64,000 nt of DNA from Peptoniphilus vaginalis (GTDB lineage: Bacteria > Bacillota > Clostridia > Tissierellales > Peptoniphilaceae), in contig NZ_FXLP01000004.1 in NCBI RefSeq assembly GCF_900176605.1, forward strand, positions 372,001 through 436,000, given 5' to 3'. This document shows positions 1-62,981 of this stretch, piece by piece. Every line of letters begins with the position of its first letter. Position 1 is the stretch's first letter. The position numbers were made by a program, and so were the translations under genes. Under the pieces are notes generated by a model. It was not told the origin of the DNA and did not search any database. It saw nothing but the letters and a program-made list of their open reading frames with translations.

Positions 1-419
1 TTTGCTCCAAAATATAGGAGACAAGTAATTTATGGAAGATTAAAACAAGATATAGGAAAATATTAAGAGATTTATGTGATAGAAAAGGAATAAATATAAT
101 AGAAGCGGAATGCTGCCCAGACCACATTCATATTTTGTTGGAAATCCCACCAAAATATAGCATATCTCAAACAATAGGATATTTAAAAGGTAAAAGTAGT
201 CTAATAATATTTGATAGGCATGCGAATTTAAAATATAAATAGGGGAATAGACACTTTTGGTGTAGAGGATATTATGTAGACACAGCAGGAAAGAATGCGA
301 AAAAGATACAAGAATATATAAGAAATCAATTAAAAGAAGATTACATGGCAGATCAAATAAGTATAAAAGAATTTATAGACCCATTTACGGGTGAGCAAGT
401 GAACAAAAGCAAAAAATAA
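1..419 (+). pseudogene. tnpA: Broken IS200/IS605-type TnpA transposase, 5' end outside window
   Basis: The reading frame encodes a Y1-type (HUH) transposase of the IS200/IS605 family, which cuts and rejoins single-stranded DNA. The PDHIHILLEIPPKYS stretch contains the HUH-type histidine pair, and the later GNRHFWCRGYYVD block is typical of the family. The gene is dead: the frame changes near position 60-66 (frame 1 stops at TAA 64-66, and homology resumes in frame 3), and an in-frame TAG at 240-242 sits where the family has an aromatic residue before GNRHFW. The 5' part lies outside the window. The palindromic element end follows at 514-536. Family assignment is confident; whether the copy can be mobilised in trans is unknown. 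Confidence 0.85.
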
Positions 420-513
420 GGTGCTTTAGCACCAGCTGTGAAAAATGGTGCACGAGATAGAAAGTTCAAAGCATGGAATGCTGCCGGTAACAGCCCCTTA
501 TAGGGGCAAAACA

Positions 514-536
514 AACCACCGGCTTAGCCGGTGGTT
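514..536. repeat. IS200/IS605 right-end hairpin
   Basis: A perfect 10-bp palindrome (AACCACCGGC / GCCGGTGGTT, loop TTA) lies about 95 bp after the broken tnpA. Subterminal imperfect palindromes recognised by TnpA are the normal ends of IS200/IS605 elements. A smaller hairpin (GCCCCT/AGGGGC) precedes it at 493-507. Between here and 671 I see no gene; there is only a weak TAGGAG/CTCCTA inverted repeat near 640-655. Confidence 0.7.
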
Positions 537-671
537 ATGATTCTGTTAGTAAATGTGTATAACAGAGCTGCTATATATCTTTTTTATTTACATATTGTTT
601 GTAGTTTAAATTTGCCTTTAATTAGTGTGTTTCTATTAGGAGAAAATCTATCTCCTACACAGCTTTATTAA

Positions 672-2054
672 TTATGAAAAAATTTCTAATTCAAAATTAT
701 CTAAAGCCTCTTGTCTGCATTGTTTTGCTTTTTTGTAGTAAATATTCGCTCCATCCCTTGCATCAAAGAACTTTTTTATTATTTGTTCTTGAATAGGTAT
801 TGAAGGAATTGGAATTCGGATAGCTCCAATTTCATCACTATTTAAATTATATTGACCGCCGCCTTGCCTGCGCATAACTGCAATTTGTTCTCTAACCAAA
901 GGTGTCATAAATAATATATTTACAAATTCAGGTAATACTAAATTTGTATCAAAACGATATCTTATAAGGTATGATGCATATGTGTATGTTTCATCACTAT
1001 TAAATATTGCGGATTTCCCTACCAGATCCTTACTACCATTTGTCCTTGTTATTAGAAAATCACCTTTGCGTAAAATCCATTTATTAGGTTCTTTTGTATT
1101 TGTTGCACAATCTGCAGGCAAATATTTTAACTCTGAAAAGTCAATTTCCCCTTTAACTACATTTGATATCCTCAGCACCGGAATCATTCCCTTTTTTTTA
1201 TCCAAAGATGCCTTCACAGAAAGACCAAAAAGTGATTCTTTTTTCAAATCGTTAATTTTATATTCTGGATATTTGAAACTGTTATATATAGTTCCTAATC
1301 TACCTTCTTTTTGAATATATCCAACTTCCCATCTTCTAGTAGATGAAAAAGGTATTATTTGTAAAATTGATGAGTAAGGTTTTTCATTTTTTATTTCATT
1401 CTTCAAGCTTGATACATCCGACTGTACACTTAGTAATATGCCATTACTATAATTATCACCCTTATTAATATTTTCTTCTGCCTCATAAAGTTTTGAATGA
1501 TACGAATCAAGAATTTTCTGCTGTTCAGTTACAGAAGGTATAGGGGCTTTAATAGATGCGAATTTGTCAAAGTGCAAAGTTTGTCTGACAGAACCAGTTG
1601 TTGAATCTTTGATAAGCTTATTAAAAAAATTACACTTCATCATTAACCAAAGAAATTCTGGTAGAATTGTATCTTTACAACTAAAAACAACATATGCTGG
1701 ACTAATGTACCCACCTTTTAATTCCTGTGTTTTTATACCAATCGAACCAACATTAATTCGATACGGATTATATGCTAACCAGTTATCTTCAACTTTATGA
1801 TATTTTTGTTTTATCTTATGTCCTTTTTCAACTGAAGCATCAAACATACCTATTTTGTTTGAAACACCAAGTATGGTAAATTCTTTATCAGGTTCATCAG
1901 ACAACTGAACCTTTTTAGTTTGATGAACTAAGTGTTTTCCTAACTCTTCTACAGGATATTTCGAAAGAATCTTTTCAAAAAAGAATTGCTTTACATCCCA
2001 TTGGGTAAACGATGAGAACAATACGGTAGAAAGTAGTGCCGACTTATTGCTCAT
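672..2054 (-). CDS. hsdS: Restriction-modification specificity subunit (HsdS-like)
   Basis: This 460-residue protein is the DNA-recognition subunit of a type I-like restriction-modification system. It has two target-recognition halves, roughly residues 30-195 and 235-455, each ending in the conserved helix region (PIPSVTEQQKILDSY and PIPSIPIQEQIIKKF). Each half is expected to read one half of a bipartite target. The start ATG overlaps the end of the upstream methyltransferase-nuclease gene by 11 bp and has an AGGAGGTGG ribosome-binding site, so the two are translationally coupled. No second hsdS fragment or invertase is adjacent, so shuffling of recognition domains is not suggested. Confidence in the role is high; the recognition sequence cannot be read from the DNA. 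Confidence 0.9.
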   Translation of the reverse strand: MSNKSALLSTVLFSSFTQWDVKQFFFEKILSKYPVEELGKHLVHQTKKVQLSDEPDKEFTILGVSNKIGMFDASVEKGHKIKQKYHKVEDNWLAYNPYRINVGSIGIKTQELKGGYISPAYVVFSCKDTILPEFLWLMMKCNFFNKLIKDSTTGSVRQTLHFDKFASIKAPIPSVTEQQKILDSYHSKLYEAEENINKGDNYSNGILLSVQSDVSSLKNEIKNEKPYSSILQIIPFSSTRRWEVGYIQKEGRLGTIYNSFKYPEYKINDLKKESLFGLSVKASLDKKKGMIPVLRISNVVKGEIDFSELKYLPADCATNTKEPNKWILRKGDFLITRTNGSKDLVGKSAIFNSDETYTYASYLIRYRFDTNLVLPEFVNILFMTPLVREQIAVMRRQGGGQYNLNSDEIGAIRIPIPSIPIQEQIIKKFFDARDGANIYYKKAKQCRQEALDNFELEIFS

Positions 2055-4440
2055 TCAACACCACCTCCTGACCAAGAATACTTCTACAGTACAAATTATT
2101 ACTATTTAGAACATAAGAAATGTTGTTGTTTACAAGCGCCCATAAATCGTTCTGCATTCTATAGGTAAAATATTCACTTACTAACTGTGGTAGCTGGTTC
2201 CCTTCAGATGCAGTACCGGTTGTTGTAATACCTGCATCATCAATCTTAGCAATTGGAATCTCGTAATCAAATTTCTTCTTTACCAAGGGTTTAGTTTCTT
2301 CTTCGATTAACTTATAGAGGCCTTTTAATTCTTTTTCATTAGTTTTCTTATTCAGCCTATTTTCAATTTGTTCTTTTTTAATAGCTGCTATTTCTGTATC
2401 AATCAAATGTGTATTTTTATTATTTTTTTTAGTTTGTCTAAGTCTTGCCTGTGATTTCTTTAAGTCAGCCTTTAGAGATTCTGTAAGGCTAATTGTGTTA
2501 TCGATAGCATCTTTTATTGCATCAATCTCAGCTTGGTGTATAGAAGTAATCTCCGCTAAGGCATCAACTTTACACTTATTGTATTCCAATTCTTCATCAG
2601 ATGTAAATCTACGCATAAAAACCAAGCTTGGTTTTACTGTTGCGCCTGCTGCGATAAATACATCCTGTGGAATTGAGCAAATAAGAATAATTTTAGCTTT
2701 TCCCTCAAAATATTCTCTGACAGCCTGCAGATTTTTATTATTAAGCACGCCTTCTGGAAGTACCATTCCCATACGTCCGCCTTTTTTTAGAAGGCGTAGG
2801 CATCTTTCCATAAAAAGTACTTCTGTCAGGGTAGATGTGCTACCAAGGTCATAAAGAGACAATAGGGTTTTTCCAATATTGTTATCTACTTGCTTTAAAG
2901 CCTCATCATATGCCACACCATACTTCTTTTTATACTTTTTCTTAATTTCTTCATCGGTAAACTTGTCTGCGTCAGAAATTAGCTGGTTTTTATCAACATT
3001 TTGACCAAATGGAGGATTAGTCAAGATCACATCAAATCTCTCTTCAAAAATACCATTAACATTAAGTAAACCATCATGATGATGAACACCACCATGACCA
3101 TCACCATGCATAATCATATTCATTTTAGAAGTTCTTGCCATTCTAGGATTTGCATCTGTACCGTAGATACAATTGCGTGAAAGATTATACATACGACTGT
3201 TTTCAACACTTGTGTCAAGTTCGGTATTTAATGCAGCCTGCATAACATCAATTTTCTCACTAATTTCAGCCTGTTCCTGCTCAGATTTAGTATCAAAATT
3301 ATCACCTTCTAAAGATTTACGAAGTACATCTTTCTTTTCTTTAATATCATGTTCTATTTTTTCACGAACATATTCAAAGGCTTTAATAAGAAATCCTCCT
3401 GACCCACAAGTTGGGTCACATATAATTTCACCTTCTTGTGGATCAAGAATTTCTGTCATAAAATCAACAATGGTACGAGGTGTAAAAAATTGACCTAATT
3501 CGCCTCTGAAAGTTGTGCCAAGGAAATGTTCAAAAGCTATGCCTTTAACATCATCTTGTGTATCAGAAAGATTAAAATTCTGTAGTTTTTCTAAAATCTG
3601 AACAAAACTATTTTCCCTAATTTTTATCTCATCACTTTCCTCGAAAAGGTGATCGTCCTTAAACTCTATTTTTGTTGTATTAAATAGATTCTGCATATAG
3701 GGCAAGTCTATACCTGCAGCTTTCAATCCCGGTCGTACATTCTTTTCATAATTGTCTGCCTGTGCAATATATTCTTCTCTAGTAAATACCTTTGTTCCTT
3801 TTTGCTGACGTTCATATCTAATCTTCATAAATAAAAGTTTACTTATTTCATCAAATGCAGCTTCAGGAGAAAGTTTATCATTATTTCTAATTATGTTATG
3901 GCAAGCCTGAAGTATTTTGGTAAATTCATCACGAGTAAAGGTTTTAGTCTGATTTTTTATTTGTTCAATCTTTTTTGCATTGTCAACATCTTTTGCGGTA
4001 GGAATAGCAACTACTTCTTCAAGCTTTTGTGGAAGATATGCAGGATCAACATTGAAGTATTTGGTTTCTTTTTCATTCGTAGTAACAAAAAATTCGGCAT
4101 GAGCCCATGCAGCATAGTTAAACCCTTGATAGTAATCTTCAACATGAATTTTCACATTTTCTGCTTTGCATTCTATCACGATAAATGCAGATTTTTTTGC
4201 ATCTTTATCTGCTTTGTTTTTCCAAATTACAATGTCTGCACGAGCCTTACCTTGACCACGATGCGAATTGCTAACTTTCAATTCTTGTGCCATCTGTTCT
4301 AATGAATAACCATAATCATTTATAAGTGATGCTATATAGTTTTGTCTTACTCTCTCTTCGGGTTTTGTAATTAACCATTTATCTATTAATGGGCAATAAA
4401 TTTTACCTTCCTTTTCTTCGACTTGATATTTATTAGCCAT
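2044..4440 (-). CDS. Fused restriction nuclease / N6-adenine DNA methyltransferase
   Basis: This 798-residue protein combines cleavage and modification in one chain. Residues about 30-150 form a PD-(D/E)XK nuclease domain of the type I R-subunit N-terminal kind (RADIVIW, then FIVIECKAE; likely catalytic D69, E90, K92). The HsdM-type methyltransferase follows, with the SAM-binding motif DPTCGSGGFL near residue 342 and the catalytic NPPF near 473. A lysine-rich coiled segment follows around 640-710. I place the start at the ATG at 4438-4440 rather than the longer frame, because GGAGGAGG lies just upstream. It overlaps the Xre gene upstream and hsdS downstream. No HsdR translocase gene is nearby, so this is closer to a BcgI-like type IIB/IIG layout than to classical type I. 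That classification is inference. Confidence 0.88.
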   Translation of the reverse strand: MANKYQVEEKEGKIYCPLIDKWLITKPEERVRQNYIASLINDYGYSLEQMAQELKVSNSHRGQGKARADIVIWKNKADKDAKKSAFIVIECKAENVKIHVEDYYQGFNYAAWAHAEFFVTTNEKETKYFNVDPAYLPQKLEEVVAIPTAKDVDNAKKIEQIKNQTKTFTRDEFTKILQACHNIIRNNDKLSPEAAFDEISKLLFMKIRYERQQKGTKVFTREEYIAQADNYEKNVRPGLKAAGIDLPYMQNLFNTTKIEFKDDHLFEESDEIKIRENSFVQILEKLQNFNLSDTQDDVKGIAFEHFLGTTFRGELGQFFTPRTIVDFMTEILDPQEGEIICDPTCGSGGFLIKAFEYVREKIEHDIKEKKDVLRKSLEGDNFDTKSEQEQAEISEKIDVMQAALNTELDTSVENSRMYNLSRNCIYGTDANPRMARTSKMNMIMHGDGHGGVHHHDGLLNVNGIFEERFDVILTNPPFGQNVDKNQLISDADKFTDEEIKKKYKKKYGVAYDEALKQVDNNIGKTLLSLYDLGSTSTLTEVLFMERCLRLLKKGGRMGMVLPEGVLNNKNLQAVREYFEGKAKIILICSIPQDVFIAAGATVKPSLVFMRRFTSDEELEYNKCKVDALAEITSIHQAEIDAIKDAIDNTISLTESLKADLKKSQARLRQTKKNNKNTHLIDTEIAAIKKEQIENRLNKKTNEKELKGLYKLIEEETKPLVKKKFDYEIPIAKIDDAGITTTGTASEGNQLPQLVSEYFTYRMQNDLWALVNNNISYVLNSNNLYCRSILGQEVVLNEQ

Positions 4441-4654
4441 TATTCTTATCCTCCTCCGGTATAAATTCCAATATATCATTAGGTGTACAGTCTAAAGCCA
4501 AACAGATACTTTCTACTTTATCCAAAGCCATATACTGTCCATTTCGTATTTTTGTAATTATATTTGCAGAAATCTTGGCGTCTCTTATTAAGTCCTGATT
4601 TGAAATATCTTTTTCAATCATCATATGTAGTAATCTTTTGTAACTTACAGCCAT
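4433..4654 (-). CDS. Xre-family HTH regulator of the restriction locus
   Basis: A 73-residue protein that is almost entirely a Cro/CI-type helix-turn-helix domain (NQDLIRDAKISANIITKIRNGQYMALDKVESICLAL). It is the first gene of the restriction-modification operon, with GGAGG before its ATG, and its stop codon lies inside the start of the nuclease-methyltransferase gene. Its position and size resemble controller proteins that time expression of restriction genes relative to methylation, but many small Xre proteins look alike, so that role is inferred. A plausible minus-strand -10 box (TATAAT) lies at 4682-4687. Confidence 0.8.
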   Translation of the reverse strand: MAVSYKRLLHMMIEKDISNQDLIRDAKISANIITKIRNGQYMALDKVESICLALDCTPNDILEFIPEEDKNNG

Positions 4655-4835
4655 AATTTTCCTCCATCAATATTTTTATCTATTATATCACATTTCTATG
4701 ATTATCTTCATACTATCATTTTATGGGTTGTTCCTAAAACATAAGCATCAAATATTTACATCTCCAAAAACTCACTTACAGAATTGTTGGAGATTTTTTA
4801 TTTTAGGGGTTCGATTATGCTCCTTTCTAAATCTA

Positions 4836-4994
4836 GTAAAGAAATACACGGATATTAAAGAACTTGATCAAGAAATAATTAGAACTTTTGTAGATAAGAT
4901 TTATGTAGAACAATCAGAAAAAGTTCCAGGTACAAATTTAAAGAAACAGACCATTTGGATTTATTGGAATTTTATTGGGAAAATTGACATTTAA
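4836..4994 (+). pseudogene. C-terminal remnant of a large serine recombinase (DUF4368 tail)
   Basis: The last 52 residues of an open frame (VKKYTDIKELDQEIIRTF through the C-terminus) match the DUF4368 tail found at the end of large serine recombinases of Tn4451/Tn1549-type integrative elements. The frame upstream (from 4698) does not look like recombinase, and no resolvase catalytic domain is present, so only the stub survives. A long hairpin (4996-5029) and a terminator follow immediately, as expected for the true 3' end of a gene. This is a scar of a lost mobile element next to the restriction locus. Confidence 0.7.
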
Positions 4995-4995
4995 A

Positions 4996-5029
4996 AATCG
5001 GCACAAAGGTTAATACCTTCATGCCGATT
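4996..5029. repeat. Stem-loop after the recombinase remnant
   Basis: An 8-bp inverted repeat (AATCGGCA / TGCCGATT) encloses an inner stem (AAGGT / ACCTT, loop TAAT). It starts just after the recombinase stop codon. It may be an element-end structure or mRNA 3' hairpin; it is not followed by a T-run of its own. Confidence 0.55.
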
Positions 5030-5057
5030 AAATTTTAAGGAAATAATCCCTAATTAA

Positions 5058-5080
5058 GAGCCCCTAAGGGGGCTTTTTTC
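5058..5080 (+). terminator. Intrinsic terminator
   Basis: A 6-bp G/C stem AGCCCC / GGGGCT with a 4-base loop is followed by TTTTT on the plus strand. It would end transcripts running through the recombinase remnant, and its stem may also act on the minus-strand DUF438 gene. Confidence 0.7.
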
Positions 5081-5086
5081 ATATCA

Positions 5087-6445
5087 TCAATATTGGCTTA
5101 TGTCCTCCACTGTTTCCAAGGTGCCCATATAAGTGCCAGCTTCATCATAAACTGCAAGGTACTTAACTAGGATCTTCTTTCCCTTAATATCTCTACACAC
5201 AACTAGACGATCCCTCTTTTTGTTTTTGAAATCATCAAGCAAGGACTTTACCATTGGGACAACTTTTGGAGGATGACAAGAAGCTACGTCTCTATTTAAA
5301 CAGGACTTAGGTCTAGGAAAAATTTTGTCCTTACCCTCAGAATAATATCTAACAAAGTCATCCTTATCTATAAAGGTTAGCTCGGCATCAAGGGTCCTAA
5401 AAATTTGAAGGGCTTCCTTTATCTTTAAGCTTCCAGTTTCGAATTCAAGACTTCCACAAGAAACTTCTTCTTCTTCTTCTTCAGGTAGGATTTCTTTAGG
5501 TCTATAGTCCTTCCAAAGTGGGACATCATCAACTAAGTCTAGTCCATATTCTTCAAGGTCGCCATAAATTTTATTCCACTCTTCCTCTGTGAAGTTTTCT
5601 TTTAAAAGGGGGAAGAGGATATTTTCTTCTTTATATATCATTTCATAGACCCTATCTAAAATTTTATTTAAGCTTTCCTCATCATAAGAATTTGTCTTTA
5701 CAATGTTAGATAGGTCACTTCTTATTTCATCATCAACAGCCCACATAACATCGCTAGGACCACTGATATTGTATTTAGTTTTCAAGAGGGGATAAATAAG
5801 TCCAGCCTTTTTCCCATAGTGCGAATTTATTTTTAAAAGCTCTATTATCTTAGCTAACTTGTCCTTACTATTTTTAACTTCGTCAGCCAAAAATTTAATT
5901 TTTTTATTTTCTGCACTCAAAATATTTAGGGGATGACCTGGGATTTTTTCCAAATCCTTTTGACTCTCATCTACAATATTACTTTCGTGGAAAAGTGCAG
6001 AGTGGATGTCGCATAGTTTTTGGACTTTTTCTAGGGGAAGGCCACTCATAATTAGTTCTTGTTCAGCATCGACAATTTCCTTTGAAGATACATCCTTGAA
6101 ATTTTTTACAAAATCACTTCTAACAGCTTCCAAGTCTTCGCCCTCGGAAAGTCTTTCGATATAGGATTTTAATAGCTTAAGTCTTTCATTATCTTCCCTG
6201 GCATCATCATTAACAATTTCTTCATCAACTAGATTGAAGCCTTCTTCTTTTAACTTCTCCTTGATTAAATCCAAGTCTATATTTTTTATCTTGGCTCCTT
6301 TTTTTATCGAAACCATTTTTCCCACAGTAGAAAGGGCTAGGGGATTTGTAATTTCAGTAAAACCCAAATCCTTTAAGATATATTTTAAATTTGGAAATTT
6401 TTCAATGAGACTTGCTACGGGTTCGTCTAAGTTTATATTCTTCAT
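5087..6445 (-). CDS. DUF438 protein: DUF1858 - DUF438 - hemerythrin - PAS
   Basis: A 452-residue soluble multidomain protein. Residues about 1-70 are DUF1858 (LIEKFPNLKYILKDLGF), about 85-150 DUF438, about 165-310 an HHE hemerythrin-like di-iron domain (NSHYGKKAGLIYPLLK, KEENILFPLLKENFTEEEW), and about 335-450 a PAS-type sensor domain (CLNRDVASCHPPK, TLETVEDISQY). Hemerythrin domains bind oxygen or nitric oxide, and family members are thought to act in redox or gas sensing in anaerobes; the exact signal here is unknown. The gene stands alone, with the plus-strand terminator at its 3' side. The ATG is preceded by AGGAGG. Confidence 0.85.
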   Translation of the reverse strand: MKNINLDEPVASLIEKFPNLKYILKDLGFTEITNPLALSTVGKMVSIKKGAKIKNIDLDLIKEKLKEEGFNLVDEEIVNDDAREDNERLKLLKSYIERLSEGEDLEAVRSDFVKNFKDVSSKEIVDAEQELIMSGLPLEKVQKLCDIHSALFHESNIVDESQKDLEKIPGHPLNILSAENKKIKFLADEVKNSKDKLAKIIELLKINSHYGKKAGLIYPLLKTKYNISGPSDVMWAVDDEIRSDLSNIVKTNSYDEESLNKILDRVYEMIYKEENILFPLLKENFTEEEWNKIYGDLEEYGLDLVDDVPLWKDYRPKEILPEEEEEEVSCGSLEFETGSLKIKEALQIFRTLDAELTFIDKDDFVRYYSEGKDKIFPRPKSCLNRDVASCHPPKVVPMVKSLLDDFKNKKRDRLVVCRDIKGKKILVKYLAVYDEAGTYMGTLETVEDISQY

Positions 6446-6515
6446 ACTTCCTCCTAAAATTTTATTAAGGATATTATATTCCTTATTAGTAAAGATTTGT
6501 TAAATTTAATCAAAT

Positions 6516-6541
6516 AAAAAGAGACTCTGTCGAGCCTCTAG
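6516..6541 (-). terminator. Intrinsic terminator after the small membrane protein
   Basis: On the minus strand an 8-bp stem AGAGGCTC / GAGTCTCT with loop GACA is followed by TTTTT. It ends the transcript of the 51-residue gene at 6545-6700 and separates it from the DUF438 gene. Confidence 0.7.
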
Positions 6542-6544
6542 ACT

Positions 6545-6700
6545 TTATTTAGTTTCTAAAACCAAAGCTCCTATTAACTTGTAGACAGCTAAGAGGCAGA
6601 TTAGGATAAAGATGCTTAAGAAGGGATCCTTAGTGTAAGTAACAAGTACAATGCCAAGAAGTATGCTAACTAAACTTTCCAAAAATTTTTTGTTTTTCAT
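6545..6700 (-). CDS. Small membrane protein, 51 residues, unknown function
   Basis: I do not recognise this protein. It begins MKNKKFLESLVSILLG and is mostly hydrophobic, with two likely short membrane segments (about residues 9-20 and 27-46). An AAGGAGG ribosome-binding site lies 7 bp before the ATG and a terminator follows the stop codon, so it looks like a real single-gene transcript. The left end of the IS30-type element lies about 50 bp upstream of its start, so the insertion may have changed its promoter. Confidence 0.6.
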   Translation of the reverse strand: MKNKKFLESLVSILLGIVLVTYTKDPFLSIFILICLLAVYKLIGALVLETK

Positions 6701-6748
6701 GTTTATCCTCCTTATAAAGTTTTTATGTGATGAATTGCAAATAATATT

Positions 6749-7768
6749 GCGACACCTAAATTAAACTAAGTTCATGTAAAAATAATTCAAATGGAGTTTG
6801 ATAATTTAGACATTTCCTAGGTCTGCTGTTAAGCTCCATTAAATTTTTAATAAGATCTTCTTCAGATATCTCTGCTAAATCTGTCTTTTTAGGATAATAT
6901 TCTCTCAATAGACCATTTGAATTTTCATTACTTCCTCTTTGCCATGCTGAATATGGGTCAGCAAAGTAAAAGTCTATCCCAAGCTTTTCAACTTCATCAT
7001 AGCAAGCAAATTCTTTTCCTCTATCTGATGTAAAACTTTTTAAGGCTTCTTTTGGAAGTGATTTAACAAGTTTATTGATTGCTTCAAACATTGAATCTTT
7101 GCTTCTATCTTTCATTGGTAATGCTATATAAAACCTTGTTTTTCTTTCAACAAATGTTGCTAAACACCCCTTGCTTTTTCCTCTAGAAGACACAACTGTA
7201 TCAAGTTCCCAGTGTCCGAAGGAAACCCTATACTTTATGTTTTTTGGTCTTTTTCTTATAGATGTACCTATGTTAAATTTTCCTCTTGTTTCTTTGCTTT
7301 TTCTAGACTTACCTTTTCTTCTTAATCTTGAAATATCAAAATCTATTACTCCAGAATAAATCCAGTTATATATTGTTTTAAAGCTTAATATTCCTTTATA
7401 AAGGCAACCTACAATTTGCTCAGGTGACCATTTAGAATTAAGCTTTTCTTTGATATTTTCTAATATTTCATAAGTTACTTTAGTTTTTCTTCCTTTTAAT
7501 GATGATTTAGATTCTTTATCTCTTTCTGCTAGGCCAGCTTCGTATTCAGTATCACATCTTTTAAGCTCTCTAGCTATTGTGGAATGATGACATCCTAAAA
7601 TTTTCGCTATTCTTCTAGAAGAATAGCCCTCTTTGTTTAATACCTCTATCTTATTTCTTTCGTTTAGTGTAAGATGTTTATAGCTCATATTAACCTCCGT
7701 GTGTGTTTTTGTCGTTATTAACATTTTACACGAAGTTAGTATGAGTTTTTATTTTTTATTTGTGTCGC
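6749..7768. mobile_element. IS30-family insertion sequence
   Basis: The element is bounded by inverted GCGACAC / GTGTCGC at 6749-6755 and 7762-7768, and the similarity extends weakly inward. It contains a single intact transposase gene whose stop abuts the left repeat. ATT flanks both outer ends (6746-6748 and 7769-7771), which fits the 2-3 bp target duplications of IS30 elements, though a match this short could be chance. The copy appears intact and potentially active. Confidence 0.75.
6756..7688 (-). CDS. IS30-family transposase
   Basis: A 310-residue DDE transposase. The N-terminus has a helix-turn-helix (LTLNERNKIEVLNKEGYS...ARELKR). The catalytic core shows the three acidic residues in ELDTVV, TSDRGKEF and NENSNGLLREYYPKK, the last being the IS30 signature around the catalytic glutamate. 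The start is set at the ATG 7686-7688 (MSYKHLT), which has GGAGG 7 bp upstream; the frame is open 12 codons further but without a ribosome-binding site. No stops or frameshifts are present. Confidence 0.92.
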   Translation of the reverse strand: MSYKHLTLNERNKIEVLNKEGYSSRRIAKILGCHHSTIARELKRCDTEYEAGLAERDKESKSSLKGRKTKVTYEILENIKEKLNSKWSPEQIVGCLYKGILSFKTIYNWIYSGVIDFDISRLRRKGKSRKSKETRGKFNIGTSIRKRPKNIKYRVSFGHWELDTVVSSRGKSKGCLATFVERKTRFYIALPMKDRSKDSMFEAINKLVKSLPKEALKSFTSDRGKEFACYDEVEKLGIDFYFADPYSAWQRGSNENSNGLLREYYPKKTDLAEISEEDLIKNLMELNSRPRKCLNYQTPFELFLHELSLI

Positions 7769-7950
7769 ATTTAATTTTACAACTTATTATGTACTTAATA
7801 AAATATTTCTTATCAATTATTATATACCACAAAAAAAGGGTTTTAAAGGATAAACCTTTAATTAGATAAAGAATATTAAAAATTTGTAAAATTTCCTACT
7901 TTAAAAATAATTTTTACAATTAAATGTTATCATAGGAAAATGGAGGATTT

Positions 7951-8178
7951 ATGTTAATTAATTTTTTTCACGGGATGGTCATGGCAATAGCAGACTCTGT
8001 GTCAGGAGTAAGTGGGGGAACTCTTGCCTTCATATTAGGGTTTTATGATAAATTTATAGACAGCTTGCATGAATTTTTTGGGAGCCAAGGAGAAAAGAGG
8101 AAAGAAGCCTTTAAGTATCTCTTTAAGCTTGGACTAGGTTGGCTCTTTCGGTTTTATAGTAAGCTCAGGAAAATATGA
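7951..8178 (+). pseudogene. Truncated DUF368 (undecaprenyl-phosphate translocase family) gene
   Basis: The first ~60 residues (MLINFFHGMVMAIADSVSG, VSGGTLAFILGFYDKFID) match the N-terminus of DUF368 membrane proteins, whose members include the PopT-type flippases that recycle the C55-P carrier. Full-length proteins have roughly 270 or more residues and many membrane segments; this one diverges after KLGLGWLF and stops at 75. The start is well formed (GGAGG before ATG), so the promoter end is intact and the loss is a 3' deletion. An intact uppP at 15306-16181 covers the preceding carrier-recycling step. Confidence 0.8.
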
Positions 8179-9201: not shown

Positions 9202-9840
9202 ATGAAAGTTGGAGTATTCGCAGGGACTCATGAAGACACAAGGATGGGAGTAGACCTCTTGGAGGGAAGAGGTTTTGAAACTTTGTCCTATCCCATTTCC
9301 AAGAACCCCAAGGACCAATCCCTTCTTCAATATTATTCAAGAGAAGAGTTGACAAGGCTCGTTGAAGAAAAAATTGTAGATGCAAAGGCTAAGGGGGCAG
9401 AGAAAATTTTTATCTACTGCAATTCACTTTCAGCTTCCATTGACATCGACGACCTATCACGTCGCCAGGAAATACAAATTATCACTCCCTTGGACTTTTA
9501 TAAGGAACTTGACTCATCATATAAGAAGTTAATCATCCTGGCAGCAAACTCAAAATCAGCCTATGGTGTTGATGCCCTTGTCTGTGCAAAAAACTTTAGG
9601 GACACAATTTCTCTTGGCATCCTAAGTCTTGTGGAAGAAATTGAAAAGAAGACACCGCCAGAAGAAATCGTAAAGAAGCTGGGACTGAGAGACCTCTTTA
9701 ACTTTTTTAACAAGATGGAAGATGGGCAAGATGGAATCATCCTCGCCTGTACCCACTTCCCCTACATGAAAGAGGAATTTAAAAAATTAACAGACATAGA
9801 GATCCTAGACCCAGCAGAGGACATGATAGATAGACTGTAA
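9202..9840 (+). CDS. Aspartate/glutamate racemase-superfamily protein
   Basis: This 212-residue protein has the two-cysteine layout of cofactor-independent Asp/Glu racemases: YCNSLS near residue 73 (family ACNTAS) and ACTHFPYM near 183 (family GCTHFPL). It is shorter than MurI (about 260 residues) and lacks the usual DSG motif at the N-terminus, which here reads VFAGTHEDTRMG. It is therefore a diverged superfamily member rather than a clear MurI. It is coupled to the lipid kinase upstream and ends at a strong terminator. Confidence 0.7.
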   Translation: MKVGVFAGTHEDTRMGVDLLEGRGFETLSYPISKNPKDQSLLQYYSREELTRLVEEKIVDAKAKGAEKIFIYCNSLSASIDIDDLSRRQEIQIITPLDFYKELDSSYKKLIILAANSKSAYGVDALVCAKNFRDTISLGILSLVEEIEKKTPPEEIVKKLGLRDLFNFFNKMEDGQDGIILACTHFPYMKEEFKKLTDIEILDPAEDMIDRL

Positions 9841-9876: not shown

Positions 9877-9908
9877 AAAAGAGCTTTTTCTTAGCTCTTT
9901 TATTTTTT
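9877..9908 (+). terminator. Intrinsic terminator
   Basis: The stem AAAGAGCT / AGCTCTTT is followed by an interrupted T-run (TATTTTTTT). It closes the lipid kinase-racemase operon. Confidence 0.75.
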
Positions 9909-9918
9909 TACCCACAAA

Positions 9919-10135
9919 AGTGGATAAATTTTATGAAATTGTGGATAAGATTGTATAAATCTTATAAAGTTTCCTTAAATTTCTTGTAAAATTACAAACT
10001 TTTCTTGTTTTATGATAAGATTTTCAAAATGTGCATGAATTGTGCAGAACTTTTCAAGACAAATGTTTAAATTCTTGTGGATAATGTGGATAAATCTGGG
10101 GATAAAGTCTTTATCACAAGTAGGCTTGTGGAGAA
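9919..10135. promoter_or_regulatory. DnaA-box cluster in a convergent intergenic region
   Basis: Three exact copies of TGTGGATAA (complement of the DnaA box TTATCCACA) lie at 9940-9948, 10076-10084 and 10085-10093. Three further sites differ at one base: 9919-9927, 10097-10105 and 10127-10135. All face the same way, and the DNA between them is AT-rich. The flanking genes converge on this spot, unlike a typical bacterial origin, where they diverge. It may be a DnaA-titrating or modulating cluster of the kind known outside oriC in Bacillus, or a displaced origin; dnaB and rplI lie 6-8 kb away. Confidence 0.7.
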
Positions 10136-10154
10136 AAATTTTATTAATTTTTTA

Positions 10155-12041
10155 TCAATCCTCAAGTTCCATCCATTTTTCATAGAGGTCTTCTAAAGTA
10201 TTTGCAAGGCTTTCACGCTCTATTGATAAATCGCTTGCTAGTTGATAATCGCTGTAAGTGTTAGAGTCTGCAAGTTTAGAGTCGATTGTGGATAACTTTT
10301 CTTCGATTGTTGAAATCTCTTTTTCAACTTTTTCTTTTTCCTTGCGAAGGACCTTATTTTTTTTGCGTTCTTCTCTCTCTTCACGCTTTTCCTTTTCAAT
10401 TTCTGTTCTTGACTTGTAGTCATGGTCAAGACCTTCAACCTCTGTGGTCTTTTCAAGATAGTAATCGTAGTTGCCAAGGAAGCTGTTGATGCCCGACTTT
10501 GTCATTTCAAAAATTTTATCAACAGTCTTATTTAAAAAGTACCTGTCGTGGGATATGGATAGGACTGTTCCATCGTACTTTAAGAGGGCATCTTCAAGGA
10601 TTTCCTTTGAGTCGATATCCAAGTGATTGGTAGGCTCGTCAAGGACAAGAAAGTTTGCCCCCTTTAGCATAATTTTTAAAAGTGAAAGTCTTCCACGTTC
10701 TCCACCAGATAGTTCGTCAACGGTCTTAAAGATGTCGTCGCCCACAAAGAGAAACTCTGCTAAGTATTTTCGAATTTGGAAGTGTTCAAGCTTTGGAAAC
10801 TCGTCCCAAATTTCATCCATGACAGTCTTGTCTAAGTTTAAGTTGTCCAGCTCTTGGTAGAAAAATGCAACCTCAACATTAGACCCAAGTTTAACTTCTC
10901 CAGAGCTTGGAGAAAGTTCTCCAGCAATTATCTTAAAGAGGGTGGACTTGCCCACACCGTTGGGACCAATGAGGCCAATCTTGTCGTTTTTGTAAACAAA
11001 GGCACTTAAGTCATGAAAGACTTGGTGGTCGCCAAAGGACTTTGAAAGGTCCTTGATTTCCAAGACATCCTTGCCTGAAGTTTTATTTGGCGTGAAGTGG
11101 AGATTGGTCTTCTTATTTGATGCCGGCATCTCAATCCTCTGCATCTTATCAAGCATCTTCTTACGGCTCTTGCCCTGCTTGATGAACCTGTCACGGCCAA
11201 GATTCATATACCTCTTTATGATCTCTTCCTGCCTCTTGATTTCCTTTTGTTGGTCCTCATACTGTCTCTTTAAGACTTCAAAATCCTTCTTCCTCTGCCT
11301 CATGTAGGTGTCGTAGTTGCCCTTGTAGGATTTGGTTTCTCCATTTTCCAAGAGGACGATCTTGGAGACAATGTTGTTTAAGAAGTACCTATCGTGACTG
11401 ATTATGATAACAGCCTTGTCAATGTCCTTTAGATATTTTTCAAGCCAAGAGATTGCTCCAATGTCCAAGTGGTTGGTAGGCTCGTCAAGTAAGAGCAGGT
11501 CTGCCTCTTCAAGGAGGAGCATGGCTAGTGCCACACGAGACTTTTGCCCGCCAGATAGGGTGGAGATGTCCTTGTCAAAGTCCTCTTCTGTGAAGCCAAG
11601 ACCAATTAGGGTTCCCCTTATCTTTGAATTATAAGAATAGCCATCCCTCTTGTGGAACTCGTCTTGGAGCCTTTGGTACTTCATGAGTTCTTCGTCGAGA
11701 TTGTCGGGGTTAGCGGCAATTATGTGTTCTTGATTTCTCAAGTTTTTTTCAAGTTCTATTAGGTCAGCAAAGATTGAAAGGCAGTTGTCGTAAATAGACC
11801 CCTCAGTGTGAAGGCTAAGTTGTTGCTCTAGGTAACCAACCTTTAAATCCTTCTTCCTAAAAATTTCCCCATCATCATAGGAAAGATTTTCTGTAATTAT
11901 ATTAAAAAGAGTGGACTTGCCACTTCCGTTGATTCCAATGAGGCCAATTTTATCCTTGTCCTCAACTATTAGGTTTCCAGCCCTAATAGTTTCTTCATCA
12001 ATATAGGATTTTTTTATATTCGTTAAACTAAGTATTGGCAT
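10155..12041 (-). CDS. ABC-F family ATPase
   Basis: A 628-residue soluble protein with two ABC ATPase domains and no membrane segments, as in ABC-F translation factors that act at the ribosomal E-site. Domain 1 has GINGSGKST, LSGGQKSRVAL and LLLLDEPTNHLD; domain 2 has GPNGVGKST, LSGGERGRLSL and FLVLDEPTNHLD. A charged linker of about 80 residues joins them, and a C-terminal coiled coil (residues about 530-628) resembles the Uup/YdiF subgroup. The ATG at 12039-12041 was chosen because GGGAGGT precedes it. Housekeeping or antibiotic-protection roles cannot be separated from sequence. Confidence 0.88.
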   Translation of the reverse strand: MPILSLTNIKKSYIDEETIRAGNLIVEDKDKIGLIGINGSGKSTLFNIITENLSYDDGEIFRKKDLKVGYLEQQLSLHTEGSIYDNCLSIFADLIELEKNLRNQEHIIAANPDNLDEELMKYQRLQDEFHKRDGYSYNSKIRGTLIGLGFTEEDFDKDISTLSGGQKSRVALAMLLLEEADLLLLDEPTNHLDIGAISWLEKYLKDIDKAVIIISHDRYFLNNIVSKIVLLENGETKSYKGNYDTYMRQRKKDFEVLKRQYEDQQKEIKRQEEIIKRYMNLGRDRFIKQGKSRKKMLDKMQRIEMPASNKKTNLHFTPNKTSGKDVLEIKDLSKSFGDHQVFHDLSAFVYKNDKIGLIGPNGVGKSTLFKIIAGELSPSSGEVKLGSNVEVAFFYQELDNLNLDKTVMDEIWDEFPKLEHFQIRKYLAEFLFVGDDIFKTVDELSGGERGRLSLLKIMLKGANFLVLDEPTNHLDIDSKEILEDALLKYDGTVLSISHDRYFLNKTVDKIFEMTKSGINSFLGNYDYYLEKTTEVEGLDHDYKSRTEIEKEKREEREERKKNKVLRKEKEKVEKEISTIEEKLSTIDSKLADSNTYSDYQLASDLSIERESLANTLEDLYEKWMELED

Positions 12042-12149
12042 AATGACCTCCCAGATACATTTTAACAAATTAGGAGGACCTTTAAAAGAAGCTAGGCTTG
12101 TGAAGTAGCTTGGAAAGCATTGAATAATAAAATAGGGTAAGCCTATAGG

Positions 12150-56612: not shown

Positions 56613-57640
56613 AAAAATTACTGAACACCTTATATGTAATAAATCCTGATTATTATCTGAGAAAAGAAGGAAGAAATATTTCCATAACAGAGGATTCAAA
56701 TAGAATTGCAAGATACCCCATCCACATATTAAAGCAAATAGTTTGCTTCAACTACATGGGTGTCAGCCCAGACCTTATGAAGATGTGCATGGAAGAAAAT
56801 GTAGCGATAACATTCTTCACACCCTACGGAAAGTATTGTGGAAGAGTAATAGGAGCATCTTATGGAAATATTTATACGAGAAAGAAACAATACAAAATGC
56901 AAGAATCAGAGGAGTCATTAGATTTTGTAAAAAATATAATTTATGCTAAGGCCTACAACTCTAGGAAGGTTTTAATAAGAGGGAAGTTAGATAATAAAGA
57001 CAAGGTAGACGTCAAAAGGTTAGAAGAAGTAATAGAAGCAATAAAGCTACTTATGCTAGAAATAAAAAATTGTAAAAACAAAGATAGTGTAAGAGGCATT
57101 GAGGGAATAATTGCAAAAGGCTACTTCTCTGTCCTAGATGAATTAATAATTAAGCAAAGAGAAGACTTTTTCTTTATTGATAGGAGCAAGAGACCACCAA
57201 TGGACAGATTTAATGCCTTAATATCTTTTCTCTACTCCCTACTCACCAATAACATTGCCGCAGCTCTTGAAGGAGTGGGAATAGATTCTTATGCAGGATT
57301 CTTTCACACAGATAGACCAGGTAGAGTTAGTATGGCACTAGACATAATTGAGGAGATGCGAGCCTTTCTAGTTGATAAGTTCACACTATCAATGATAAAC
57401 TTAAATAGAATAAACAAGAACCATTTTGAAGTTAAAGAAAATGGAGCCACACTCCTAAACGAAAAGGGAAGACAGGTAGTTTTAGAAAACTGGAACAAGA
57501 GAGAACAAGAAGAAATCTACCATCCATTTTTTGAGGAAAACATAAAAATTGGACTGCTCCCTCACGCACAAGCCCTCTTATTAAATTCTTATCTTAGAGG
57601 AGACATAGAGGCCTATCCACCCTTTATGATAGGAGGCTAA
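56609..57640 (+). CDS. cas1: Cas1 integrase, type I-C
   Basis: The 343-residue metal-dependent integrase of the spacer-acquisition complex. Catalytic residues fit E in RGIEGIIAKGYFSVLDELI near 165, H in GFFHTDRPGRVSMALDIIEE near 232, and D in the same block near 245. Length is normal and no lesion is visible. It is coupled to cas4 upstream and cas2 downstream. Confidence 0.96.
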   Translation: MKKLLNTLYVINPDYYLRKEGRNISITEDSNRIARYPIHILKQIVCFNYMGVSPDLMKMCMEENVAITFFTPYGKYCGRVIGASYGNIYTRKKQYKMQESEESLDFVKNIIYAKAYNSRKVLIRGKLDNKDKVDVKRLEEVIEAIKLLMLEIKNCKNKDSVRGIEGIIAKGYFSVLDELIIKQREDFFFIDRSKRPPMDRFNALISFLYSLLTNNIAAALEGVGIDSYAGFFHTDRPGRVSMALDIIEEMRAFLVDKFTLSMINLNRINKNHFEVKENGATLLNEKGRQVVLENWNKREQEEIYHPFFEENIKIGLLPHAQALLLNSYLRGDIEAYPPFMIGG

Positions 57641-57641
57641 A

Positions 57642-57935
57642 ATGCAAGTATTAATTACTTACGATGTAGAAACAGTAACGCCAGCTGGCAAAAAAAGATT
57701 AAGACAGGTAGCAAAAGTCTGTCTTGATTATGGACAAAGAGTACAGAACTCAGTCTTTGAACTAAATATTTATCCAGCCGACTTGGTAGAAATAAAAAAC
57801 AAATTAGAAAAAATAATTGATTCCAAAAAAGATTCCATAAGAATTTATAATTTAGGGAAAAATTGGGAGAGAAGAGTTGAAAGCCTGGGAAGAGACGATA
57901 CTTATAACCCAGAAAAAGATTTATTGATCTTGTAG
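57642..57935 (+). CDS. cas2: Cas2
   Basis: The 97-residue dimeric partner of Cas1 in spacer integration. MQVLITYDVETVTPAGKKRL carries the conserved early aspartate (D8), followed by GQRVQNSVFELNI near residue 30. It starts one base after the cas1 stop. The CRISPR leader begins immediately downstream. Confidence 0.96.
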   Translation: MQVLITYDVETVTPAGKKRLRQVAKVCLDYGQRVQNSVFELNIYPADLVEIKNKLEKIIDSKKDSIRIYNLGKNWERRVESLGRDDTYNPEKDLLIL

Positions 57936-58066
57936 GACTTGTGAGATTTGGACCTGGACATAAAAAGCCTAGACCTAACTCATAAAAAACAAGGAAAAAA
58001 GAGACAAAACTCTTTAAAAAATGATTAGCTGTATTTTTTAGCAGGAGATAATGGCTAAAAAATACG
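57936..58066 (+). promoter_or_regulatory. CRISPR leader with terminal palindrome
   Basis: The 131-bp AT-rich leader separates cas2 from the first repeat. Its last 35 bp form a perfect 12-bp inverted repeat GTATTTTTTAGC (58031-58042) and GCTAAAAAATAC (58054-58065), loop AGGAGATAATG, ending one base before repeat 1. This may help Cas1-Cas2 recognise the leader-repeat junction, or be an mRNA hairpin that separates cas2 message from pre-crRNA. Confidence 0.75.
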
Positions 58067-61000
58067 GTCGCACCCCTCGCGGGTGCGTGGATTGAAATCT
58101 ATAATCACATTTCCAAAAATTACATCATTTAGAAGTCGCACCCCTCGCGGGTGCGTGGATTGAAATCCCCCGGTTGATAGGTTGACACTTTCGGCGGCTC
58201 CGTCGCACCCCTCGCGGGTGCGTGGATTGAAATAGCGATAGAAATGAAGCTAGAAATTATGGAAGAGAGTCGCACCCCTCGCGGGTGCGTGGATTGAAAT
58301 AATTCTATCTACATTACCACGAGCTATGCCTGCCAAGTCGCACCCCTCGCGGGTGCGTGGATTGAAATTTCTTGGACACTGTTTCGGACCGCAGATTGTC
58401 GGAGTCGCACCCCTCGCGGGTGCGTGGATTGAAATCTAAAAGTGCATGGTAAGGGGGCAAAAGAAAGAATTGTCGCACCCCTCGCGGGTGCGTGGATTGA
58501 AATTATTGTCCTCTGACTTGGCTCACTATATAGGCTTAGTCGCACCCCTCGCGGGTGCGTGGATTGAAATGTCTAAAAAATTTCTTTGTAAAAATTCTAG
58601 GTATGTCGCACCCCTCGCGGGTGCGTGGATTGAAATTTAAGAGAATCAACAATAGATAACGAAGAACAATCATAAAAGTCGCACCCCTCGCGGGTGCGTG
58701 GATTGAAATATTTATTTTGGTTATTCTGTTGTTTTAAGATGGGGTCGCACCCCTCGCGGGTGCGTGGATTGAAATGATTTTCTCAATCTTATATACATAT
58801 CCCTAGCACAAGTCGCACCCCTCGCGGGTGCGTGGATTGAAATCTTATAATAATCAACTACAATTTTAGGCAAAGTAGTCGCACCCCTCGCGGGTGCGTG
58901 GATTGAAATAATTAACCTACTCTAACAAGACCACCACCAAAATTGTCGCACCCCTCGCGGGTGCGTGGATTGAAATATTAAATAAAAAGAAACTCATTAC
59001 GTGGACTTCTGCGTCGCACCCCTCGCGGGTGCGTGGATTGAAATTATTTTTAAGTTATTTATTATTTACAAGAAAGAAAGTCGCACCCCTCGCGGGTGCG
59101 TGGATTGAAATAACCTTTGCAACTCCTGCAAAATCGCCATAGATTAGTCGCACCCCTCGCGGGTGCGTGGATTGAAATCTCAAATGACTTATCTTTACGC
59201 TCCATATAGTTATGTCGCACCCCTCGCGGGTGCGTGGATTGAAATATGATGCTCTTGATAATCTATTATTGACTGTTGATAGTCGCACCCCTCGCGGGTG
59301 CGTGGATTGAAATTCCATTTCTTAGTGCTGCGATTTGGTCTCTTGCCTGTCGCACCCCTCGCGGGTGCGTGGATTGAAATTACTCCTACCATTTCATACA
59401 CCTGTACCTGCTGCGTCGCACCCCTCGCGGGTGCGTGGATTGAAATCGTCGTCGATTGAAGTCACGTAGTCAAAATCTACAGGTCGCACCCCTCGCGGGT
59501 GCGTGGATTGAAATCCTGTGCAAAGTTAGGATCATCTTGCGTTAATATAAGTCGCACCCCTCGCGGGTGCGTGGATTGAAATATGGTCAAAGTGGGAAGT
59601 GCGACAAGTTATATATGTCGCACCCCTCGCGGGTGCGTGGATTGAAATAAGTAATGCCTTAAAAGTTCCAATCCTTAACTCGAGTCGCACCCCTCGCGGG
59701 TGCGTGGATTGAAATATTTCCTCTAGGTTGTACCTGTCCTTGTCGTCAGAAAGTCGCACCCCTCGCGGGTGCGTGGATTGAAATTAATTTAAAAGTATCT
59801 CAAAGGAAACGGAAAGGGGGTCGCACCCCTCGCGGGTGCGTGGATTGAAATAATTGCAGAATTAGACAAAAAATCATTTTTAGATGTCGCACCCCTCGCG
59901 GGTGCGTGGATTGAAATGTATTCTGGTACTCCTGGTAGTGGTAAATCCTTGCATGTCGCACCCCTCGCGGGTGCGTGGATTGAAATGCTATGTTGCTCAC
60001 GATATACTTACTTGTTAAGTTGTCGCACCCCTCGCGGGTGCGTGGATTGAAATATCAAATGGCGTGTATGGATCCATCAACCTCACACGTCGCACCCCTC
60101 GCGGGTGCGTGGATTGAAATTAATCAAATAAAATTTTAGTGAGGTTTTTATGTTAGTCGCACCCCTCGCGGGTGCGTGGATTGAAATTTAAAAGATAATG
60201 ATGTAGGTTTACTTTTATCAGGTCGCACCCCTCGCGGGTGCGTGGATTGAAATTTAAAAGATAATGATGTAGGTTTACTTTTATCAGGTCGCACCCCTCG
60301 CGGGTGCGTGGATTGAAATATGATTTGCCGCCTGAATTATATGCTTGATCCCCGTCGCACCCCTCGCGGGTGCGTGGATTGAAATAGAAAAATCAGGATT
60401 AGCAGGAAAATGGCTAAAAAGTCGCACCCCTCGCGGGTGCGTGGATTGAAATGTCATTATAACCAATCCAGGATATTACAAAATTATGTCGCACCCCTCG
60501 CGGGTGCGTGGATTGAAATAGCATTCTAGTGATAGCAGTAGCCGCAATGTATTTGTCGCACCCCTCGCGGGTGCGTGGATTGAAATACGGATTTATCGAT
60601 GGTATGGAATTTGAAATTACATGTCGCACCCCTCGCGGGTGCGTGGATTGAAATGTCAATCTTTTCGTTTTGTCCTTGTAGGGATAATTGTCGCACCCCT
60701 CGCGGGTGCGTGGATTGAAATAACATACATAGTGTCCGTGATAAAAAGTAACCTCTCATGTCGCACCCCTCGCGGGTGCGTGGATTGAAATCCAGATTTT
60801 AAACAAGTAAGGGAAATGGCAATTAAGTCGCACCCCTCGCGGGTGCGTGGATTGAAATGTGATTGATAATTGTACTTTCAATCAAATTTTCTTGTCGCAC
60901 CCCTCGCGGGTGCGTGGATTGAAATTATAAAAATGTTAAAAATAGAGAGACGGCAGCTGCAGGTCGCACCCCTCGCGGGTGCGTGGATTGAAATTATTGA

Positions 61001-62127
61001 TTTCGCACCCTGCTTCTGCTCCTGCTACCCGTCGCACCCCTCGCGGGTGCGTGGATTGAAATATCAAGGTTTTCTAGTGGGTTTGCTGTTGCTTCTGTCG
61101 CACCCCTCGCGGGTGCGTGGATTGAAATTCTTGAGAAGATAACTTTTCAAAATGACGACCTAGTCGCACCCCTCGCGGGTGCGTGGATTGAAATATTTAG
61201 AAAAATGAGAAGATTAAAAAATGGAATGGTCGCACCCCTCGCGGGTGCGTGGATTGAAATAACTCTTGCATCAGTTTATAGGTCAAATTTATTGTAGTCG
61301 CACCCCTCGCGGGTGCGTGGATTGAAATACCATCTACAGATGGTATTGAAAATGATATCAAGAGGTCGCACCCCTCGCGGGTGCGTGGATTGAAATATAA
61401 GAAGATACCAGATTTTTTGAATTAAAACTTCGTCGCACCCCTCGCGGGTGCGTGGATTGAAATAAGGCAATACCAGGACAATTTGGAACTGTCAAAACGT
61501 CGCACCCCTCGCGGGTGCGTGGATTGAAATGCTCTCCATACTGCACAACACTTACTGCTGCATTTGTCGCACCCCTCGCGGGTGCGTGGATTGAAATCTG
61601 TTCCTTCAGCGGCAAAAACAGAAGAGTTAAGGTCGCACCCCTCGCGGGTGCGTGGATTGAAATAAGTTGCTCCACATAGTTATATAGGTTTATGTAAGTC
61701 GCACCCCTCGCGGGTGCGTGGATTGAAATACATATTAGTTGCCCTTTTCTAACACTATCATCAGTCGCACCCCTCGCGGGTGCGTGGATTGAAATCTGTT
61801 CCTTCAGCGGCAAAAACAGAAGAGTTAAGGTCGCACCCCTCGCGGGTGCGTGGATTGAAATAAGTTGCTCCACATAGTTATATAGGTTTATGTAAGTCGC
61901 ACCCCTCGCGGGTGCGTGGATTGAAATACATATTAGTTGCCCTTTTCTAACACTATCATCAGTCGCACCCCTCGCGGGTGCGTGGATTGAAATGTCTAAT
62001 GTCTATGTTTAATATTAATTATTTATTTGTCGCACCCCTCGCGGGTGCGTGGATTGAAATGAGTACGCTAAAGGTGACACAGTAGAGCAATTAATGTCGC
62101 ACCCCTCGCGGGTGCGTGGATTGAAAT
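58067..62127 (+). CRISPR. Type I-C CRISPR array, 61 repeats and 60 spacers
   Basis: I count 61 copies of a 32-bp repeat, from 58067-58098 to 62096-62127, identical as far as I read them. The repeat begins GTCGCACC, forms a 7-bp stem CGCACCC/GGGTGCG with loop CTCGC, and ends with the 11-nt handle TGGATTGAAAT, the standard type I-C form. Spacers are about 33-37 bp. Spacers 32 and 33 (60188-60221 and 60254-60287) are identical. Spacers 53-55 repeat exactly as 56-58, a 198-bp duplication (61566-61763 and 61764-61961). Open frames across the array are repeat artefacts. The leader is at the left, so spacers at the left are newest. Confidence 0.98.
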
Positions 62128-62153
62128 TTTAATATAATAAGGTGATTTACTAT

Positions 62154-62321
62154 ATGAAAAATAATTTTTTAAATTTATTTACTTTAATAACTTATCTTAT
62201 AGGTTTTGTTTTAATTATATTGTCTAATATATATAAAAACATATATTTAGCGAAAGTAGCTATGGGGTTTTATGTTTTATTTGGTTTGATTTTAATTTTT
62301 GCCTTTTGGTTAAAAAAATAA
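62154..62321 (+). CDS. 55-residue membrane protein inside the array trailer
   Basis: I do not recognise this protein. It begins MKNNFLNLFTLITYLIGFVL and has two membrane helices (about residues 5-23 and 35-52) with a LysLys end. AAGGTGATT lies before the ATG. The gene sits between the last perfect repeat and a degenerate repeat at 62358-62389, an unusual place for a gene. A small hydrophobic protein there could be an insertion passenger or a toxin-like peptide, but nothing in the sequence decides. Confidence 0.55.
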   Translation: MKNNFLNLFTLITYLIGFVLIILSNIYKNIYLAKVAMGFYVLFGLILIFAFWLKK

Positions 62322-62357
62322 TATATTCTTCAAATGAATAAATATAAAAACGATTCA

Positions 62358-62389
62358 GTCGCACTCCTCGCTGGTGCGTGGATTGTAAT
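62358..62389 (+). CRISPR. Degenerate terminal repeat
   Basis: This 32-bp unit matches the array repeat at 29 positions (changes at repeat positions 8, 15 and 30), so the stem and handle are weakened. It lies 230 bp beyond the last perfect repeat and marks the older array end before DNA was inserted. Confidence 0.9.
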
Positions 62390-62416
62390 CATTAAGAAAG
62401 GTAAGGTTAGCAAAGG

Positions 62417-62689: not shown

Positions 62690-62738
62690 AAATTTTTACT
62701 CGCCCAGCGAGTGAAAAATTTAGTAGCAATATTCATAA

Positions 62739-62754: not shown

Positions 62755-62774
62755 TGAAGTATAAGGTTATTTTT

Positions 62775-62939: not shown

Positions 62940-62981
62940 TTTAATAAGTTTTTATTTACGATTTTTTTATAGTGTAAATGG

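Follow-up and report, generated by a model that had tools for sequence, protein, structure and literature searches.

What is a row of DnaA boxes doing between the converging 3' ends of two genes, well away from any obvious origin, in Peptoniphilus vaginalis, and how far does it persist among related bacteria? We examined these questions in a 64,000-nucleotide stretch of the chromosome (hereafter the window), in further genomes of the genus and in a family-level sample of the phylum.

A row of DnaA boxes between convergent genes

A box scan of the window recovered all six boxes that the first-pass annotation had claimed, namely three exact and three one-off DnaA boxes on the same strand within 217 bp (9919-10135). 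The exact box, TTATCCACA on the minus strand and hence TGTGGATAA on the plus strand, is found at 9940-9948, 10076-10084 and 10085-10093, while the boxes with one mismatch, also on the minus strand, are at 9919-9927 (AGTGGATAA when read on the plus strand), 10097-10105 (TGGGGATAA) and 10127-10135 (TGTGGAGAA). Those at 10076, 10085 and 10097 form a tandem triplet with starts at offsets 0, 9 and 21, and the last box begins at offset 51, giving a layout of 0/9/21/51. Three sites had escaped the annotation: a seventh, exact minus-strand box (10287-10295) inside the adjacent ABC-F gene, where it is in frame and encodes Leu-Ser-Thr (TTA TCC ACA), and two plus-strand sites with one mismatch each, at 9848 and at 9908-9916 (TTACCCACA), the latter inverted relative to the box at 9919. 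The grouping of DnaA boxes in the window is beyond chance: among 300 sequences of 64 kb simulated under a first-order Markov model, the richest 217-bp stretch held one same-strand box in 167 runs, two in 131 and three in 2, as against six in the window. The 1.877-Mb genome has 27 copies of the exact sequence TTATCCACA, four of them at the array.

The boxes lie between a racemase-like gene on the plus strand (9202-9840; its matches are below curated cut-offs) and an ABC-F ATPase gene on the minus strand (10155-12068), so the convergent setting had been described correctly. The gap between the two genes measures 314 bp, and a terminator-like hairpin on the plus strand (9877-9901) separates the racemase stop from the box group. 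The racemase-like gene is itself preceded by a lipid-kinase-like gene, and beyond the array, at 16-20 kb of the window, are dnaB, rplI and a gene that we presume to be gdpP-like, its match being below cut-off. Elsewhere in the window, positions 1-8000 carry genes that we take to be restriction-modification-like (672-4479) and transposase-like (6756-7724), and are perhaps an acquired island; GC skew at 1-7 kb is about -0.14, whereas the rest of this arm is mostly positive. At the other end, G+C climbs to about 0.47 at 57000-63000, for which an rRNA operon is the likely cause.

Position relative to the replication origin

The dnaA match (C2:271455-271952) and the array (C2:381919-382135) are on the same contig, with the array 110 kb to the right of dnaA. 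We sampled GC skew in 10-kb steps over 464 kb of this contig (707,770 bp), the window included, and found its minimum at the dnaA end. As far as 272 kb every step is negative save one that is close to zero; past this point most steps are positive, the exceptions being the step at 342 kb, the window's first two steps and the final two of the sample (616-636 kb). The dnaA region has boxes on both sides of the gene and a TACTACTATTACTAA tract (DnaA-trio) beside one of them; the neighbours of dnaA are, we assume, rpmH and dnaN. The first-pass annotation had proposed GC skew and the position of dnaA as a check, and both put the origin 110 kb from the array. Its argument that a convergent setting speaks against a simple origin agrees with dnaA, the GC skew and the DnaA-trio tract, all of which place the origin elsewhere. 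Less fortunate was the hint drawn from dnaB and rplI as origin-proximal genes, since at about 116-118 kb from dnaA they are no origin marker in this genome.

We therefore rejected the array as oriC or a second origin: dnaA and the skew switch in the sampled part of the contig are 110 kb off, and the array is without a DnaA-trio tract. A cryptic or former replication origin could explain why an intergenic stretch this AT-rich (26% GC) contains several boxes, but is the least probable of the explanations considered here and hardly credible, given a dnaA gene and skew minimum at about 272 kb of the contig and a longest TAN run of two in the array versus five between dnaA and dnaN.

Across oriC from the array, and about 98 kb from oriC, there is a second group of four boxes on the opposite strand (C2:174159-174260; 2159-2260 of locus L012). 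Among the 13 other genus genomes, only G003 and G012 gave matches along most of this group; the remaining matches are shorter and weaker, and some of them fall on the window array itself. A mirror-image pair of clusters around oriC was thus rejected as a rule for the genus, the left group being clear in only two of the 13.

Conservation in the genus and recurrence after tsaD

The core pattern, searched with up to one mismatch tolerated, was found once per genome and free of mismatches in all 14 genus genomes (P. vaginalis included), and the control matched none. Of the two circumstances that the annotation had said would count against its reading, one thus holds, the distant origin (110 kb), and the other, relatives lacking the cluster, does not. 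The ABC-F gene is the array's conserved neighbour in the genus, with the array adjoining its 3' end in 13/13 other genomes. Individual boxes at 9940, 10076 and 10097 are invariant in 14/14 genomes; in the box at 10085 two positions vary among relatives (mean agreement 12.8/14), and the outer boxes at 9919 and 10127 have mean agreements of 12.4/14 and 12.0/14 genomes per column. Fully invariant nine-column segments of the 14-genome alignment (starts 9916-10146, plus ABC-F columns 10158-10870) begin at 9940, 10076-10079 and 10097-10100, each at a box start or at most 3 bp from one. The ABC-F part has a single fully invariant segment out of 705, and this starts at 10287, which is exactly the in-gene box; third codon positions of the gene agree on average in 9.8/14 genomes, and the three within the box agree in 14/14. 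The box sites are under selection. The triplet is 135-136 bp from the box at 9940 in 12/14 genomes; in the other two this distance is 124-125 bp, shorter by about one helical turn.

In a wider set of genomes, a search for the tandem box pair that tolerated up to two mismatches succeeded in 39 of the 41 genomes searched, our own included, and 20 of the loci (L032-L051) were inspected for neighbouring genes. ABC-F and TsaD genes converge on the pair in three of the 20: L035, from another family of the same order, and L041 and L044, from the same family as the window. At L047 TsaD is accompanied by no more than a weak ABC-F fragment some 1.3 kb off, L046 has TsaD only, L050 and L051 (the latter a congener) have ABC-F only, L045 adjoins dnaA, and 12 of the 20 are without any tested gene. 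Of a position between the 3' ends of ABC-F and tsaD, the window shows the ABC-F side, and the tsaD side is seen in relatives only. The tsaD gene of the window's genome is on another contig (C1), without a box group there, and we infer that the array stayed with ABC-F once tsaD became separated.

For a view across the phylum, TsaD was located in 149 genomes, and in one genome per family the sequence following tsaD was examined for up to 3 kb, which gave 58 loci. These represent families f1 and f18-f76, with the incomplete tsaD matches of G042 (f21) and G073 (f51) excluded and f77-f94 outside the sample; 3/58 stretches are shorter than 3 kb, ending with their contigs. The first 300 bp past the tsaD stop contain 167 boxes with at most one mismatch, 149 of them in the tsaD direction, as compared to 5.1 on average and never more than 12 in mononucleotide shuffles of the same 300 bp and to 6-17 boxes in each subsequent 300-bp bin. 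At least three boxes occur within these 300 bp in 32/58 families; the other 26 loci do not have three inside this distance. Start-to-start distances between boxes concentrate at 9 (29 pairs), 12 (19) and 21 (20); smaller peaks include 42-44, 51-54, 62-64 and 97. Within 500 bp of the tsaD stop, the pair 0/9 is present at 24/58 loci (none in reversed sequence), and a full triplet takes the form 0/9/21 at 9/58 and 0/12/21 at 6/58. Four or more of a composite six positions (0/9/21 and about 52/64/73) are occupied at 11/58 loci; the complete six-position layout was rejected, with all six at 0/58. An ABC-F gene was not detected in any of the 58 post-tsaD stretches of up to 3 kb, either by phmmer (E 1e-10) or by tblastn, and the same search method succeeds in 13/13 other genus genomes. 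ABC-F was accordingly discarded as a general neighbour across the phylum, and the three-part arrangement of ABC-F, boxes and tsaD is one seen in few relatives.

Searching the 149 genomes for the 0/9/21 triplet itself, with up to three mismatches, gave 119 matches in 78 genomes, none in the reversed control, and no triplet in the other 71. Forty-three matches are at most 600 bp 3' of tsaD (42 in the tsaD direction), six more are up to 6 kb downstream, and 70 are elsewhere. Of 20 of these 70 whose neighbours we examined, five adjoin a hibernation-factor gene and ten a ComF-like gene, 13 loci in all as some adjoin both; the recurrent loci are L253, L255-L257, L260-L262 and L265-L270. The ComF-like identity is our assumption, as Pfam gave only zinc-ribbon matches below cut-off. 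Two Paenibacillus genomes (L135, L168) share a site, distant from tsaD, at which both have the exact triplet next to a gene that we take to be methyltransferase-like.

A scan of named genomes for the exact triplet gave at least 119 loci. Among the 119 listed, TsaD is a neighbour in 28, always with the triplet on its 3' side and in the same orientation, and ABC-F in three, those of Peptoniphilus duerdenii, P. harei and P. genitalis. Other neighbours that repeat among the 119 listed are a Ribosomal_S30AE hibernation-factor gene (11), a TrmB-like gene (8; for example L156, L200 and L202) and HrcA (7; for example L164 and L223). In 86 of those listed, 14 of them near the end of a stretch, none of TsaD, ABC-F, dnaA and dnaN is present inside 1.2 kb. 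The triplet is not strictly off-origin, as dnaA or dnaN is the neighbour in 2 of the 119 listed. Distances to dnaA were taken in 17 near-complete genomes out of 31, these being triplet-bearing with dnaA on the same large contig (five of the lengths are rounded table values). None of their 23 triplets is near dnaA, the nearest being 131 kb away, and 18/23 are no more than a quarter of the genome away from it (binomial p 0.005); tsaD is likewise so placed in 11 of the 17 genomes.

Possible function of the array

In Bacillus subtilis we take gcp to be tsaD, and ydiF to be an ABC-F gene. DnaA of that species is reported to bind a region described as 'downstream of gcp; downstream of ydiF' at position 627955, with 10 sites (region 4 in Table 1 of PMC4447404). 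For this gcp-ydiF DNA the same source gives an apparent Kd of 0.15 uM for ATP-DnaA and 0.33 uM for ADP-DnaA, and a 16-fold higher recovery with ATP-DnaA at 55 nM; it also reports cooperative binding at almost all B. subtilis regions. Deletion of six off-origin clusters in B. subtilis reportedly leads to early initiation, which is partly relieved when one cluster is added back, and the review that describes this states that the effect is strong only when all six are removed and that no particular clusters have yet been singled out as having significant roles (PMC5295017).

The window array resembles gcp-ydiF in being off-origin and intergenic, between convergent genes and with ABC-F, assigned here to family level, on one side. 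The two differ in that a racemase-like gene stands in the window where tsaD would be, in that our array is nearer oriC (110 kb of 1.877 Mb versus position 627955 of about 4.2 Mb), and in its having one box inside the ABC-F gene. Other B. subtilis regions, ywlC, ywcI-vpr, yydA, sda-yqeG and trmE-jag, likewise have groups of DnaA boxes and are reported to be tightly bound by DnaA (PMC4447404), but they are upstream of at least one gene, several of which DnaA is reported to regulate, whereas the window array is between convergent 3' ends. E. coli datA is off-origin, has five DnaA boxes and restrains initiation (PMC5295017, PMC4585315), yet it is reported to need an IHF site for ATP hydrolysis (PMC4585315) and has no positional link with the window. 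DARS1 and DARS2 are described as off-origin with a three-box core, but they reactivate ADP-DnaA (PMC4585315). By analogy of position, gcp-ydiF is a closer comparison than datA. The earlier suggestion of an off-origin cluster like those of Bacillus or like datA is supported by position and conservation, with a role argued by analogy; of the two, datA is the poorer comparison on account of its IHF requirement.

We consider it probable, at about 0.65, that the array is an off-origin DnaA-box cluster of the gcp-ydiF type that sequesters ATP-DnaA and restrains initiation. The seven boxes, three of them in 0/9/21-bp tandem, would load DnaA cooperatively and probably favour its ATP form. At about 110 kb from oriC the array would be duplicated early in every round, and the duplicated copies would draw free ATP-DnaA off oriC and so delay the next initiation. 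That this organism's DnaA binds the array, and with this effect, we infer from the B. subtilis clusters. The grouping beyond chance, an origin elsewhere, the core kept in 14/14 genomes, the match of invariant segments to boxes and the box excess after tsaD speak for this reading; the 26 tsaD loci with fewer than three boxes, the 71 genomes with no triplet, the two listed triplets at dnaA or dnaN, the origin-proximal tsaD of 11/17 genomes and the rarity of the three-part arrangement speak against it. YabA, in B. subtilis reportedly an inhibitor of DnaA cooperativity (PMC5295017), was not found in the window's genome by a search that recovers it in B. subtilis, and without it a larger share of the restraint may fall to such sites.

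What speaks against simple titration is the small number of boxes, the weak effect of a single cluster and the report that about 10-fold overproduction of DnaA does not cause over-initiation in B. subtilis (PMC13220808). For these reasons we retain as a rival, though an unlikely one, a nucleotide-switching element at which assembled DnaA would either have its ATP hydrolysed, in the manner of datA, or exchange its ADP, in the manner of DARS, by a catalytic rather than stoichiometric action. Recurring spacing and few boxes suit a catalytic complex better than a sponge, the cores of DARS1 and DARS2 are reported to have three boxes (PMC4585315), and the absence of all 23 triplets from the vicinity of dnaA in the 17 near-complete genomes points the same way, as opposed to the dnaA site found in 2 of the 119 exact triplets listed. 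The known elements depend on IHF (datA) or on IHF and Fis (DARS2) according to PMC4585315, however, while B. subtilis is reported to be without IHF and Hda (PMC13220808), and the B. subtilis literature examined makes no mention of such an activity.

More doubtful still is a chromosome-organising site, at which array-bound DnaA would bridge to oriC or other clusters and shape the origin region, with titration secondary. Distances of 21, 52 and 73 bp correspond to 2.0, 4.95 and 6.95 turns at 10.5 bp per turn, the two spacings between the 9940 box and the triplet are about one turn apart, and a four-box group is present across oriC; such phasing is, however, equally expected of a DnaA oligomer, and that group is clear in only two of 13 other genomes. 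We think it very improbable that the boxes serve the ABC-F transcript as a transcription or RNA element of its 3' untranslated region, whether as roadblock, as terminator or as structured RNA. Seen from ABC-F, the hairpin at 9877-9901 is beyond the boxes, which would be transcribed if it also stops the ABC-F transcript; the invariant segments, however, coincide with boxes, and the box groups after tsaD in other lineages are without ABC-F in the stretch read. A structured RNA was rejected, Rfam giving three matches, all at chance level (E 0.66-0.98).

A bolder and quite tentative reading is that the phased tandem array (0/9/21, about 52/64/73) beside tsaD or ABC-F represents a single ancestral device of the Firmicutes dedicated to assembling ATP-DnaA, an IHF-free and position-conserved counterpart of datA. 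It would set the initiation interval jointly with a second recurrent copy, such as one beside hibernation-factor and ComF-like genes, and would stay with either neighbour when gene order breaks. Our estimate for this is held low because no single locus of the 58 has all six positions.

We found no literature report of Firmicutes-wide conservation of the array or of the 0/9/21 layout, nor any literature on DnaA boxes together with tsaD, although primary B. subtilis studies may discuss conservation. The wide conservation may be new, and the persistence across the phylum with recurring spacing seems to be the new part. By place and spacing, the array can be followed from single invariant boxes in one genus to many families of the phylum. 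The B. subtilis regions are, as PMC4447404 puts it, too few to define what makes a site ATP-DnaA-preferring, and the recurring spacings provide many natural variants for testing this preference. For the organism itself, a row of boxes that its relatives have kept in the same place probably helps to avoid premature copying of the chromosome.
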